A stretch of DNA of 64,000 bases from Geoalkalibacter subterraneus (GTDB taxonomy: Bacteria; Desulfobacterota; Desulfuromonadia; Desulfuromonadales; Geoalkalibacteraceae): contig NZ_CP010311.1 in the NCBI RefSeq assembly GCF_000827125.1, positions 558,001 through 622,000 of the forward strand. Reading direction: 5' to 3'. The position numbers and the translations under genes were made by a program. Positions 1 through 33,514 of the stretch are shown here, piece after piece. Position 1 is the stretch's first letter. Every line of letters begins with the position of its first letter. The notes under the pieces are model-generated. The model was given only the letters and a program-made list of their open reading frames with translations, was not told the origin of the DNA and did not search any database.

Positions 1-381
1 GATGATGAGATCAATCGCCTGGCGCAGGAAAAGCAGGAGAAGGACGAAGAGCTGGCTGCCCAGGAAGCGAAGGTCTCCGAGCGCAAGGGTGATATCGACG
101 AGCAGTTGCGGCAGATTGACACGGCGTTGTCTTCGAGGGAGGATGAACGCAAGGCGCTGTTTGATCGCCTGCCCAGAATGCTGGGCAAGCGCTATCAGAT
201 GCTGGTGGACCGGCGCGCAGGACTCGCCGTGGTCGAGGCACGTGACGGCGCCTGTCTGGGCTGCAACATGCAGCTTCCTCCCCAGTCGTTCAATGAACTG
301 TTCCGCAACGATGAAGTGCTGACTTGCCCCCACTGCAACCGCATCATTTACCTGGATCCGGAAACGCCGGGACAAGCCTGA
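1..381 (+). CDS. C4-type zinc ribbon / coiled-coil protein, C-terminal part (5' truncated)
   Basis: The reading frame is open from the first base, so the gene begins before the window. The visible 126 residues start with a highly charged, Glu/Lys/Arg-rich helix that fits the end of a long coiled coil. They finish with two CxxC pairs, CLGC and CPHC, about 25 residues apart, next to the phrase RIIYLDPE. This is the arrangement of the bacterial C4 zinc-ribbon family formerly called DUF164. Members are thought to bind nucleic acid or translation components, but their role is poorly defined. The RNase P RNA gene begins 10 bases after the stop, so the two may be cotranscribed, or the rnpB promoter may lie inside this gene. 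Confidence 0.85.
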   Translation, partial: DDEINRLAQEKQEKDEELAAQEAKVSERKGDIDEQLRQIDTALSSREDERKALFDRLPRMLGKRYQMLVDRRAGLAVVEARDGACLGCNMQLPPQSFNELFRNDEVLTCPHCNRIIYLDPETPGQA

Positions 382-390
382 TTGATTTTG

Positions 391-798
391 CAATGGCCGA
401 AGAAGCACAGGTGATCGCCGCCCGTCCTGCCTGAAGGCATGATGGGGGGAGGAAAGTCCGGGCTCCGCAGGGCGCGATGGTTCCTAACGGGAACCGGGGG
501 TGACCCCAGGGAAAGTGCCACAGAAAGCAAACCGCCCGCTTTGGCCCTGTGCCGAAGCAGGTAAGGGTGAAAGGGTGAGGTAAGAGCTCACCAGTGCCGG
601 TGGTGACACCGGCAGCTCGGTAAACCCCATCGGGAGCAAGACCGAATAGGGGAGCGTTTGAGGGCGGCCCGTCCGAAGCTCCCGGGTCTGGTCGCTTGAG
701 GCCGTCGGCAACGGCGGTCCTAGATGAATGATCACCGCCTCGCCCCGGGTAACCGGTACGGGGAACAGAACCCGGCTTACGGGCTTCTTCGGCCATTG
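391..798 (+). ncRNA. rnpB: RNase P RNA (M1 RNA), bacterial type A
   Basis: This is the catalytic RNA that removes 5' leaders from pre-tRNAs. The conserved core is visible at both ends: GAGGAAAGTCCGGGCTCC near 449-466, and AGATGAATGATCACCGCC followed by ACAGAACCCGGCTTAC near 722-780. The outer strands 391-406 and 783-798 are exactly complementary (caatggccgaagaagc against gcttcttcggccattg), which fixes both ends of the P1 helix. The length of about 408 nt is normal for the type A fold. No mature protein gene overlaps it if the downstream gene starts at 841. Confidence 0.97.
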
Positions 799-29835: not shown

Positions 29836-30531
29836 TTACAGGCCGCGTAGGGAGACTTGGGCGGCGTATTGGGAAGCGATTTCTTCAAAGCGGCGCAGTG
29901 TCGCGGCACTGTGGGCGCTGCGCTTGCGCCAGTCGGGTGCCAGGGCGTGCTCGGGCACGAACTGCTGCAGAATCCAAAGCGGTGCGCCCTGCAGCAGCTT
30001 GCCGAGTTGATGGAGGTCGGGTTCTTCGATCAACCCCGGCACGCAGGTGGTGCGCAATTCGTAATCGATGGTTCCGCTGCGCAGCAGCTCGATCGATTGG
30101 GGCAGAAGCTCGAGATCGACCGGAGCCCGATGCAGTTCATTGTAGCGTCCAGGAGCCGTCTTGAGATCCAGGGCGACGTAGTCTACCAGGCTTTCGTTCA
30201 TCAACTGCTCAAGCACCGCGGGAGCGAGGCCGTTGGTATCAAGTTTGATCAGCAGGTCGAGTTCCCTGATGCGGGCGAGAAACGCCGGCAGTTCCGGATC
30301 GAGGGTTGGTTCGCCGCCGGAGATCACTACACCGTCGATGAACTTGCGTCGATCTTCGATCTCGCGCAGAAGGGTATCGGCTGGATAATCGGGATGATCC
30401 TCGGGGGTGAGAACCAGGGAACCGTTGTGACAGAACGGACAGGTGAGGTTGCAACCGCCGTAAAAAACGAGGGAAGCGATCCTGCCCGGATAATCGAGCA
30501 GGCTCGTTCCCTGAAATCCTTTAATGCCCAT
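29836..30531 (-). CDS. nrdG: Anaerobic ribonucleotide reductase activating protein (radical SAM)
   Basis: This 231-residue activase generates the glycyl radical of class III ribonucleotide reductase from S-adenosylmethionine. The cluster motif CNLTCPFCHN (C-x3-C-x2-C) is near residue 27, followed by VVISGGEPTL. The N-terminus GIKGFQGTSLLDYPGRIAS is characteristic. It follows the 48-aa glycyl-radical gene by 8 bases, so reductase, radical peptide and activase form one transcription unit. The N-terminal start has little Shine-Dalgarno support and may be coupled to the upstream stop. Confidence 0.92.
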   Translation of the reverse strand: MGIKGFQGTSLLDYPGRIASLVFYGGCNLTCPFCHNGSLVLTPEDHPDYPADTLLREIEDRRKFIDGVVISGGEPTLDPELPAFLARIRELDLLIKLDTNGLAPAVLEQLMNESLVDYVALDLKTAPGRYNELHRAPVDLELLPQSIELLRSGTIDYELRTTCVPGLIEEPDLHQLGKLLQGAPLWILQQFVPEHALAPDWRKRSAHSAATLRRFEEIASQYAAQVSLRGL

Positions 30532-30539
30532 GGCCAGTG

Positions 30540-30686
30540 TCAGTTCCGGCCCTGGCCGTGCTCGACCAGGAACTCGCGGCGATCCTTGAACTCTTCTTTC
30601 TTGCCCTTGTTCCATTGCTGTACGGGGCGGAAGAAACCGCAGACGCGGGAGTAAACTTCAACTTTTGCTTCACATTTGCTGCTCAT
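30540..30686 (-). CDS. Separate glycyl-radical peptide of class III ribonucleotide reductase
   Basis: A 48-residue product with an excellent AGGAGG Shine-Dalgarno. Its sequence is the missing C-terminus of NrdD: KCEAKVEVYSRVCGFFRPV, then QWNKGKKEEFKDRREF. The RVCGFF segment matches the RVCGYL glycyl-radical loop of E. coli NrdD, so Gly17 is the expected radical site. Cys5 matches the last zinc-ligand cysteine before EVYSR in single-chain enzymes. The large nrdD gene stops 26 bases upstream in a different frame and lacks this loop. Readthrough cannot join them, so this looks like a genuine two-polypeptide split rather than a sequencing error. Whether such splits are catalogued I cannot verify here. 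Confidence 0.88.
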   Translation of the reverse strand: MSSKCEAKVEVYSRVCGFFRPVQQWNKGKKEEFKDRREFLVEHGQGRN

Positions 30687-30712
30687 TGGACTCCTCCTGT
30701 GGGTGAGACGGT

Positions 30713-32698
30713 TCAGGCCGCCTCGTGATCATGGTAAGGGCACTCGAAATGTTCGCCGGGGATGTAGCCATGCTCGGGGCAGATGGTAAATGTCGGCGTA
30801 ATGGTGAAATAGGGCAGATGGAAATTCTCGGCGATGCGCCGCGCCAAGAGTCGCGCGCTGCGCCAGTCCTCGAGGCGTTCACCGAGGAAGCCGTGAAAGA
30901 CGGTGCCGCCGGTGTAGCAGGTCTGCAGGGCATCCTGGTGACGCAGGGCCTGAAAAATATCGTCGGTGCTGCCTACCGGCAGCTGGGTGCTGTTGGTGTA
31001 GTAGGGCTGGTCATCGCCAGCGGCATGGATTTCGGGAAAACGCTCGCGGTCGGCGCGTGCCAGGCGGAAACTGGTGCCTTCACCCGGCGTGGCTTCCAGG
31101 TTGTAGAGGTGACCTGTCTGGTCCTGGTAGCTTTCGAGCTTGCCGCGCATGAACTCCAGGGTTTCCTCCGCCAGCTTGTTGCCCGCGCCGGTGGTGATGT
31201 CGCGCCCGACGAGGTTGACACAGGCTTCATTCATGCCGATCAGGCCGATGGTGGAGAAGTGGTTGTCCCAGTGGCTGCCGGAGCGCTCCTGAATTCCCTG
31301 CAGGTAGAAGCGGCTGTAGGGATAGAGGCCGTGCTCGGTGAAGCGCTCGAGTTGCTTGCGCTTGATCTCAAGGGAATCGCGGGCGATATCCATCAACTCG
31401 CCGATGCGGGCGAAAAAGGCCTCTTTGTTTTCGGCCTGGTGGGCGGCGCGGGGCAGGTTGATGGTCACCACACCGATGGAGCCGGTCAGCGGGTTGCTGC
31501 CGAACAGACCGCCGCCGCGACGGCGCAGTTCGCGATTGTCGAGCCGCAGGCGGCAGCACATGGAGCGCGCATCCTCGGGGCTCATATCGGAATTGATAAA
31601 GTTGCTGAAGTAGGGGATTCCGTACTTGGCGGTCATCTCCCAGATCGGCTCGAAACGGATGCTGTCCCAGTCGAGGTCGCGAGTCAGGTTGTAGGTGGGG
31701 ATCGGGAACGAGAAAATGCGCCCCGAGGAATCCCCCTCCATCATCACTTCGCAGAAGGCACGGTTGAACAGGTCCATCTCCTCCTGGAATTCGCCGTAGA
31801 CCGAATCCATGAGCTGTCCGCCGATCACCACGGCCTCCTCGGCCATGCCCGCCGGGGGCGACATGTCCATGGTGACGTTGGTGAACGGAGTCTGGAAGCC
31901 GACCCGGGTGGGGACGTTCATGTTGAAGATGAACTCCTGCATGGCCTGCTTGACGTCCTTGTATTTCAGTCCGTCATAGCGGATGAACGGCGCCAGCAGG
32001 GTGTCGAAGTTGGCGAACGCCTGCGCGCCTGCCGCTTCCCCCTGCAGGGTGTAGAAGAAATTGACCACCTGCCCGAGGGCGGTGCGGAAATGTTTCGCCG
32101 GGGCGCTCTGCACCTTGCCGTAGGCGCCGGTGAATCCTTTGAGCAGCAGATCCTTCAGGTCCCAGCCGCAGCAGTAGACCGAGAGCATGCCGAGGTCGTG
32201 AATGTGGAAATCCGCTTCGCGATGGGGCGCGGCGATGTATTCGGGGTAGATCTTGTTGAGCCAGTAATTGCTGGTGATATTGCTGGCGATATGATTGTTG
32301 AGTCCCTGCAGGGAGTAGCCCATGTTGGCGTTTTCGTTGACCCGCCAGTCCTCCTGGGCCAGGTAGCTGTCGATGGACTCGACCGACTCGCGCATGAATT
32401 CGCGCGTGCGGCGCAGCGATTCGTGCTGACGGCGATAGAGGATATAGGCTTTGGCGACCTGGGCGTGGCCGTTTTCGATCAGGATCTTTTCCACCAGGTC
32501 CTGAACGTTTTCGACTGTGGGGACGCGATCGTCCTTGTAGATCACCTCAAGGATGCCGACCACCTGGCGTGCAATATCCGCGGGGCGCTCCATGTCCGTG
32601 CCGCCCACGGCCCTCACCGCTTTGCAGAGTGCTTCAACGATCTTGTCCTGTTCGAACGCGACCACGCGCCCGTCGCGTTTGCGGATGAAAGGTACCAT
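30713..32698 (-). CDS. nrdD: Class III (anaerobic) ribonucleoside-triphosphate reductase, large chain without the radical loop
   Basis: This enzyme reduces ribonucleotides for DNA synthesis without oxygen. Residues 3-95 form an ATP-cone regulatory domain (VPFIRKRDGRVVAFEQDKI). The barrel follows with NMNVPTRVGFQTPFTNVT, SMCCRLRLDNR and GSIGVVTINLPR. The chain ends CPEHGYIPGEHFECPYHDHE: zinc-site residues are present, but the final CPxC cysteine is replaced and the RVCGYL loop that carries the glycyl radical is absent. That loop is on the 48-aa product downstream. The 661-residue length is close to a normal NrdD minus its tail. GGGGG precedes the start. Confidence 0.94.
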   Translation of the reverse strand: MVPFIRKRDGRVVAFEQDKIVEALCKAVRAVGGTDMERPADIARQVVGILEVIYKDDRVPTVENVQDLVEKILIENGHAQVAKAYILYRRQHESLRRTREFMRESVESIDSYLAQEDWRVNENANMGYSLQGLNNHIASNITSNYWLNKIYPEYIAAPHREADFHIHDLGMLSVYCCGWDLKDLLLKGFTGAYGKVQSAPAKHFRTALGQVVNFFYTLQGEAAGAQAFANFDTLLAPFIRYDGLKYKDVKQAMQEFIFNMNVPTRVGFQTPFTNVTMDMSPPAGMAEEAVVIGGQLMDSVYGEFQEEMDLFNRAFCEVMMEGDSSGRIFSFPIPTYNLTRDLDWDSIRFEPIWEMTAKYGIPYFSNFINSDMSPEDARSMCCRLRLDNRELRRRGGGLFGSNPLTGSIGVVTINLPRAAHQAENKEAFFARIGELMDIARDSLEIKRKQLERFTEHGLYPYSRFYLQGIQERSGSHWDNHFSTIGLIGMNEACVNLVGRDITTGAGNKLAEETLEFMRGKLESYQDQTGHLYNLEATPGEGTSFRLARADRERFPEIHAAGDDQPYYTNSTQLPVGSTDDIFQALRHQDALQTCYTGGTVFHGFLGERLEDWRSARLLARRIAENFHLPYFTITPTFTICPEHGYIPGEHFECPYHDHEAA

Positions 32699-32816: not shown

Positions 32817-32832
32817 GCCCAATATGTAGATT
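32817..32832 (-). promoter_or_regulatory. NrdR box, proximal
   Basis: GCCCAATATGTAGATT matches 11 of 16 positions of the NrdR consensus (ACACWATATATWGTGT), 8 bases upstream of the -35. It is the weaker of a pair whose starts are exactly 32 bases apart, the usual three-helical-turn spacing. Confidence 0.6.
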
Positions 32833-32848
32833 AAAATTATCGGCCGCA

Positions 32849-32864
32849 ACACCATATATTGTGA
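32849..32864 (-). promoter_or_regulatory. NrdR box, distal
   Basis: ACACCATATATTGTGA matches 14 of 16 positions of the palindromic NrdR consensus. NrdR is an ATP-cone repressor of ribonucleotide reductase genes. The remainder of the 396-base gap (32699-33094) holds one DnaA-box-like 9-mer (TGTGGATAA at 32882) but no gene. Confidence 0.8.
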
Positions 32865-33094
32865 TCAGCCGGTGGACAGGTTGTGGATAAGCAGAGGATG
32901 AAAAAGACGGGTCGGCCCCTGCAACCCCTCCTCTGGCCGCGCTTGACCGCAATAAGGGAGCATGCTAGACAGTTTTTCAACTCGACCCGTTTTCCCCTGT
33001 ATGCGTTGCTGTATTCGGTTGCCCGACTCTCAGGTCTTGCCGGATGACCAGGAGGGGCAGGAAACAGGTTTTCATCTTACTCCTGGAGGACCCT

Positions 33095-33514
33095 ATGGCT
33101 GAAACCACCCGCTTCGGCATTTCCATCGACGAACGTCTGCTGCAGCAGTTCGACGAGCTCATCGAAAGCAAAGGGTATGACAATCGCTCCGAAGCGATTC
33201 GCGACCTGATCCGTAATGCCCTTGTGGAGCAGCAGTGGTCCGGTGATGACGAGGAAACCGTGGGAACGGTGACCCTGGTCTACGATCACCACACCCGCGA
33301 CCTGGCGGACAAACTCACCGAGCACCAGCATTCGCACCATGAGGCGGTGATCTCGACCCTGCATGTGCACCTCGACGCGCATCACTGCCTGGAAGTGGTT
33401 GTGGTCAAAGGTCGCACGTTGAAGGTGCGCCGTCTGGCCGATGAGTTGATCGGCACCAAAGGGGTCAAGCACGGCAAGCTGGTGACCTCTACCACAGGAA
33501 AAGGCTTGCAGTGA
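33095..33514 (+). CDS. nikR: Nickel-responsive transcriptional regulator NikR
   Basis: A 139-residue protein with an N-terminal ribbon-helix-helix domain ([20 protein letters not shown], then [11 protein letters not shown]) and a C-terminal ACT-like nickel-binding domain. The nickel ligands are recognisable: His in [14 protein letters not shown] and the Cys of HHCLEV, equivalent to His76, His87, His89 and Cys95 of E. coli NikR. CTGGAGGA precedes the ATG. A matching palindrome stands before nikK. I see no clear copy of that palindrome in front of nikR itself. Confidence 0.93.

Follow-up and report, generated by a model that had tools for sequence, protein, structure and literature searches.

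A split class III ribonucleotide reductase gene in Geoalkalibacter subterraneus and other Desulfuromonadales, with the predicted glycyl-radical residue on a separate small protein

The gene for the anaerobic ribonucleotide reductase NrdD is divided in Geoalkalibacter subterraneus into a body that ends ahead of the glycyl-radical loop and a 48-aa ORF that carries the loop. We consider it likely that this pair, located in a stretch of 64,000 nucleotides analysed as a whole (hereafter the window), constitutes a two-subunit class III ribonucleotide reductase with a possibly exchangeable radical subunit. The split is real, and its extent goes much beyond what the earlier note on this DNA had described, which contained neither the conservation throughout the order Desulfuromonadales nor the copies in phages.

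Results

Anatomy of the locus

The body, the radical subunit and the activase gene nrdG2 lie in a row on the minus strand (Table 1). A separate small gene 26 bases past nrdD, in another frame and with AGGAGG ahead of it, had been claimed before, and both the ORF coordinates and the sequence bear this out. The accompanying claim that NrdD stops before the radical loop also stands, although the C-terminus reported with it lacked the final AA of the actual end, ...CPEHGYIPGEHFECPYHDHEAA-stop. The small ORF translates as MSSKCEAKVEVYSRVCGFFRPVQQWNKGKKEEFKDRREFLVEHGQGRN.

The Pfam NRDD profile, which has 562 positions, matches the body at profile positions 1-525 (E 2.6e-177) and the 48-aa protein at 526-562 (E 4.4e-11), so that the two chains tile the profile without overlap. 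The only other Pfam match of the body is the ATP-cone (4-93), the class I/II family PF02867 being absent, and the body scores 1021 bits with NF006126, for which the cut-off is 548. Up to an E value of 1, NRDD is the only Pfam match of the 48-aa ORF, with no pyruvate formate-lyase-type glycyl-radical domain, and a PHROGs search with the small proteins gave weak matches only. The ORF downstream, scanned from a longer start, reaches 183 bits with the NrdG2 model TIGR02495 (cut-off 131) and has a Radical_SAM Pfam match. Three cysteines, C176, C381 and C382 in the numbering of the relative L053, are invariant in 41/41 alignment rows including the window body; their assignment as catalytic positions is our own mapping from excerpts of PMC9669993. 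Upstream of nrdD, on the opposite strand, an ORF at 33044-33514 was named by eye as a NikR-like regulator.

Table 1. Features of the split nrdD locus, with positions counted within the window
Feature	Position	Strand	Remarks
nrdD body	30713..32698	(-)	661 aa; ATP-cone, catalytic barrel and first three zinc-ligand positions C640, H643, C653
Gap between body and small ORF	30687..30712	(-)	26 nt; AGGAGG at 30693-30698, 6 nt ahead of ATG
48-aa glycyl-radical subunit ORF	30540..30686	(-)	frame differs from body
Radical subunit Cys5, fourth zinc-ligand position	codon 30674..30672	(-)	
Radical subunit Gly17, predicted radical glycine	codon 30638..30636	(-)	
nrdG2 activase	29836..30531	(-)	231 aa from MGIKGFQG; 8 nt past radical subunit
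NrdR-type box 1, TCACAATATATGGTGT	32849..32864	(-)	assigned by consensus
NrdR-type box 2, AATCTACATATTGGGC	32817..32832	(-)	32 bases after box 1; assigned by consensus

In its ATP-cone (present in most), barrel, double-cysteine motif, zinc ribbon, glycyl-radical loop and NrdG neighbour, the pair resembles the one-chain NrdD of T4, E. coli, T. maritima and P. copri. It differs from these in that a break separates zinc-ligand position 3 from position 4 and places the radical loop on its own 48-aa protein rather than on the body chain, which makes it a variant among NrdD.

Conservation of the split

Within the same family, the small ORF was matched in five of six genomes searched, the sixth being 81% complete, and four relatives from another genus (G001-G004) show the identical split arrangement. 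Of 88 genomes in the order, 82 encode NrdD. Where two pieces share a frame, the genome search reports them under a single open-frame length, and the listing alone cannot separate fused from split genes; we therefore read, in the sequence, the tails of 82 bodies, which come from 76 genomes of the order. They comprise 75 split tails, no fused one, and 7 for which the motif found only the body. In the 75 genomes concerned, the third ligand is the last that the body carries, and the radical loop lies on an ORF of its own; together with the own genome and G001-G004, the split thus occurs in 80 of the 82 genomes with NrdD, none being fused. The two others are G080, whose only body is truncated and shows no radical part in the sequence that was read after it, and G021, where the contig ends. 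Apart from G080, the body-only tails belong to six second bodies: for those of G027 and G031 a separate part with another loop type, EVWTRVMGYHRP, was read, and for those of G022, G023, G026 and G028 the motif found the body only. The sole uninterrupted NrdD in the order listing is an extra copy in Geoalkalibacter (G000:C2).

In the class sample, NRDD matches are found in 81 of 165 genomes, the order included; the NrdD of G158 is uninterrupted, as is the C-terminal piece in G172. In the phylum sample of 99 genomes, 64 have NrdD, of which by our count from the listing 51 are intact, 11 split and 2 cut by contig ends. One of the 11 is Geoalkalibacter itself, which has both forms. The split is the rule in the order and the exception in the phylum.

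The gap between body and part ranges from 5 to 290 nt and reaches 418 and 422 nt in second copies, and the two ORFs stand in any of the three relative frames; this variation makes recoding into one chain unlikely. A sequencing error, or the joining of both frames into one chain by frameshifting or stop read-through, is to be given practically no weight, since the same split recurs in independent assemblies of many genera and the gap differs among them in length, frame and stop count. Sequencing error, pseudogene and one-chain recoding were all rejected on the grounds of conservation, selection and the varied gaps.

Selection and regulation

As judged from substitution rates, the radical part is under purifying selection: the median dN/dS is 0.107 for the 145 usable of 1540 pairs (56 loci; 38-codon core), and between the radical parts of the window and L006 dN is 0.039 and dS 1.16. 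Box pairs with a score of at least 24 are present upstream of 41 of the 48 split genes, compared with 0 of 960 base shuffles. The pair in the window scores 25. We take these boxes to be NrdR-type from the known consensus. Taken at the sequence level, the split nrdD cluster looks like one that is kept and regulated.

Other reductase genes in the same genome and elsewhere

The Geoalkalibacter genome (G000; 3.72 Mb, two contigs) has NRDD matches at four places. An intact NrdD is encoded on the 242-kb contig C2 (G000:C2:98384-100090). At C1:3428063-3428200, a radical part stands alone; it shares 61% identity with the small ORF of the window and lies in a Mu-like prophage that also encodes Mu transposase, an AAA ATPase, DUF3164, GemA and Mu Gp27. 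A class I/II-type reductase is likewise encoded. Near the intact NrdD (L207, G000:C2:90000-108000), the ORF list contains no obvious NrdG among the close neighbours.

The intact gene would suit a reading in which this genome no longer uses or needs the split pair and relies on the copy on the second contig. An intact nrdD elsewhere, combined with an untranscribed pair, had been named in the earlier note as what would overturn its proposal. The former does exist, but relatives in the order listing keep the split pair and show no intact copy, and the latter is countered by the purifying selection on the pair and by the twin NrdR-type boxes ahead of it. We regard a dispensable pair as very unlikely.

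Essentiality of the split enzyme in Desulfuromonadales is unsupported: PF02867 is present in 86 of 86 genomes searched in the order, so that split NrdD is not the sole reductase there. Among the 20 genomes behind the Lentisphaeria, planctomycete and other loci (see below), 10 have no PF02867. Six of the 20 (G243, G244, G245, G247, G250 and G251) have neither PF02867 nor an intact NrdD, which leaves the split NrdD as the sole reductase found; all six are MAGs and may be incomplete. Since ribonucleotide reduction is generally required for growth, this situation favours a working enzyme without amounting to proof.

Further splits, cut points and part counts

The loci search was queried with small proteins and covered the best 80 of 495 genome loci and the best 80 of 253 viral-contig loci; the sample therefore favours split genes. 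Among the matches listed, together with the window and its relatives, the cellular loci consist of 73 split, 12 stand-alone and 2 intact ones by radical-loop occurrences, where L008 and L013 appear to be one contig, and the viral loci among the matches listed consist of 70 stand-alone and 10 intact ones. The search of the small ORF across genomes, which had been suggested as a check, thus yielded separate radical parts in many genomes well outside Geoalkalibacter. Split NrdD also occurs in Lentisphaeria, in a planctomycete MAG and in an FCPU426 genome. The plasmids pFER4 of Paracoccus ferrooxidans and pTB101 of Aquabacterium olei carry a body, a radical ORF and NrdG in a row, as in the window; their radical part differs in having 60-63 aa and their nrdD in forming a separate branch of a quick tree. 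Public records label the short plasmid ORFs 'hypothetical protein' or 'nrdD'.

Geobacter-like bodies keep all four ligand positions (CPxHGY...CPxC) before the stop; these are some second bodies of the order, ten bodies from the rest of the class (L311-L320) and G261, as well as L280, L293 and L308. Where checked (G027, G031, G115, G097, G183 and G261), the loop EVWTRVMGYHRP is encoded 3' of such a body on a small ORF of its own, and going by the retained ligand motif this Geobacter-like split is a third cut point. A loop of the E. coli/T4 type, RRITGYLVG, is found on a separate ORF in G306 (L218, G306:C1:1966500-1970500), G328 (L309) and G346 (L310); the G306 body keeps a CxxC pair ahead of its end, so its cut point differs. 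In G259, G271, G296, G319 and G338, an NrdD of another family is split, and the small part has no Cys at position -12 from the glycine. Separately, the NrdD frames of L143, L158, G296, G319 and G338 are about 1000 to 2000 aa long, some with profile gaps, and inteins are likely. In the quick tree, a single tree with long branches, the split label changes 3 times, and at least 2 of the changes are forced by starred branches. A single origin with later re-fusion may also account for the distribution.

Radical parts outnumber bodies in G244 and G245 (1 body and 4 parts each) and in G246 (1 body and 3 parts). In L071 and L072, a single body precedes two radical-part ORFs in tandem, whose loops read VCGYF in one and VVGYF in the other. 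Such counts bear on plain gene fission, by which the two chains would form a permanent complex made from one cluster, with no exchange and no benefit of the split itself. The adjacency of the two genes in Desulfuromonadales, the nearness of NrdG in most loci and the usual count of one body and one radical part in the order all agree with fission; the surplus parts, the tandem parts, the stand-alone copies in phages and prophages (see below) and the origin of the split at more than one cut point do not. Because one body with one adjacent part is the usual cellular case, gene fission stays a serious rival, to which we would give somewhat less than an even chance.

In the phylum sample, G301 encodes an intact NrdD alongside two stand-alone parts of a different type that are extended at the N-terminus. 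One of the two scores below the family cut-off. These domains are candidates for GrcA-like partners of an intact NrdD. Their open frames (L216 and L217) are about 140 aa long, with the loops RITGYF and RVTGYY.

The zinc site and the fit of the two chains

In T. maritima NrdD, zinc is bound by a CxxxHx6CxxC motif directly ahead of the radical loop, as stated in excerpts of PMC4493059, and an intact relative aligns with T. maritima NrdD through this region. The break had been proposed to fall inside the zinc finger, and all 68 split pairs agree with it: the body supplies Cys-His-Cys and the small protein a Cys exactly 12 residues ahead of the glycine, i.e. 3 + 1 ligand positions over two chains. 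With the cut between positions 3 and 4, both chains would have to contribute to a site of four Cys/His ligands such as T. maritima has. The body's own fourth ligand position is Cys in 0 of the 68 pairs and His in 24, including the window, and five bodies (L024, L040, L044, L045 and L060) have a Cys one place before it. Therefore, the zinc site may also form within the body alone, with His as the fourth ligand.

A model of NrdD with the peptide, another of the suggested checks, was run for the relative L053 with the body and the small part as one tethered chain, one stop codon being read as serine. The AlphaFold model (64 alignment rows) has a pLDDT of 85.7 and a pTM of 0.83; by region, pLDDT is 79-86 for the blocks of the radical part, 51 for the linker and 43 for the last ten residues. 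An earlier model with 41 rows resolved the radical part poorly, and the result improved once stand-alone rows were added. Compared with solved class III reductases, the model gives Z values of 28-35 over ranges that take in the radical part, and superposition places model residues 126..692 on T4 26..587 and 100..699 on T. maritima 33..635. Provided that the last residues are ungapped, Gly685 of the model, the equivalent of Gly17, falls on Gly580 of T4 in 5/5 T4 rows and on Gly621 of T. maritima in 4 of the 5 rows that reach the end, with 4u3e_B off by one. The radical part is thus predicted to dock into the body. Since intact homologues in the alignment help such docking, the model provides consistency rather than proof.

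Radical parts in phages and prophages

Whole-record searches covered 50 of the 80 listed viral records, mostly stand-alone ones. A radical part alone is present in 49, and L109 has an intact NrdD. Among the 49, PF02867 was found in none and NrdG2 above the cut-off in none, with three weak matches; NrdG2 was the only model among the NrdG types used, and the viral records may be fragments. The neighbours in 22 viral loci include terminases of many PHROG families, a Mu Gam-like protein, a DNA transposition protein and primases, and this variety indicates that unrelated phages are involved. A Shine-Dalgarno-like site precedes 34 of 54 viral parts with a near ATG, where 6.5 are expected. An extra radical part also lies among Mu-like genes, assigned by eye from the ORFs, in G088 and G006 of the Desulfuromonadales. 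In the ANMV-1 virus, the match is annotated as a 144-aa 'anaerobic ribonucleoside triphosphate reductase', which is too short for a reductase.

Of the 69 listed stand-alone viral parts, 55 retain the Cys at -12 and 14 lack it. The glycine in these 69 is given by the construction of the search; all 50 profile-searched records match across the radical loop. It is conceivable that the phage copies interfere with the host NrdD, by blocking the radical site or sequestering NrdG, and thereby control the dNTP supply. With no body or above-cutoff NrdG2 in the phage records, the part must act on host proteins, and the 14 parts lacking the Cys would also suit this idea. However, retention of the Cys in the majority of viral parts, the matches across the loop and the phage's own need for dNTPs argue against it, and we consider interference improbable.

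Discussion

The proposed two-subunit enzyme would function as follows. The large chain would contribute the ATP-cone, the barrel with the catalytic cysteines and three of four zinc ligands, and the 48-aa chain the fourth ligand and the glycyl-radical loop. We infer that the chains meet at the shared zinc site, where zinc would be bound, and that upon assembly the loop is inserted into the barrel. The NrdG2 encoded in this cluster would install the radical on Gly17, from which it would move to the active-site cysteine as in one-chain NrdD.

Oxygen destroys glycyl radical enzymes at their radical residue. According to excerpts of PMC3019208, oxygen cleaves NrdD at the glycyl radical, and cleavage at this glycine would give the split a purpose. 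Oxygen damage would be confined to a cheap, replaceable part of 48 aa, and phages or prophages that carry the part alone would probably keep or restore the host enzyme, much as Y06I of T4 serves pyruvate formate-lyase. We tentatively extend this to a mobile, exchangeable family of radical parts, several in some genomes, whose phage-borne copies keep or repair host dNTP synthesis after exposure to oxygen; our confidence in this extension falls only slightly short of even.

The closest analogues are GrcA/YfiD of E. coli and Y06I of phage T4, which are also small stand-alone glycyl-radical domains, phage-borne copies included. The part in the window, on the other hand, belongs to another family, matching the NRDD profile only. 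GrcA and Y06I are extra to an intact enzyme, whereas the part in Desulfuromonadales adjoins a loop-less body, and a repair role there is one that we infer. Excerpts of PMC8683613 (2021) describe two validated spare parts, both for pyruvate formate-lyase, and consider others possible for glycyl radical enzymes. The likeness to GrcA drawn in the earlier note holds up at the sequence level. In the split class II reductase NrdJa + NrdJb, as described in part of PMC5704485, the C-terminal Cys-rich domain is likewise a separate gene; that enzyme is, however, class II and B12-dependent, and its separate piece serves reduction, not radical storage.

Neisseria is a betaproteobacterium, like Aquabacterium, and the class III reductase of Neisseria bacilliformis is reportedly the subject of Wei et al. 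2014 in PNAS. Since the Aquabacterium NrdD is split and both organisms are betaproteobacterial, the N. bacilliformis enzyme may be split as well, and a split NrdD may thus already have been described in that work. This reductase is an active enzyme according to excerpts of PMC9176816 and PMC4493059. In the open-licence literature searched, seen as excerpts and with a scope outside which the original N. bacilliformis work falls, neither a split NrdD nor an NrdD spare part was found. As far as those sources extend, what is already known comprises split class II reductases and, for pyruvate formate-lyase, two spare parts; the split NrdD is new here.

If the proposal of exchangeable radical parts is true, the spare-part principle would extend for the first time to an enzyme other than pyruvate formate-lyase, and it would act on the synthesis of DNA precursors. 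With a two-part enzyme, the radical carrier could be prepared and labelled by itself for chemical work, and short 'nrdD' entries in public annotation would have an explanation. With the predicted radical residue on a 48-aa protein of its own and related copies in phages, exchange, repair and phage takeover of a ribonucleotide reductase would become open to direct test.
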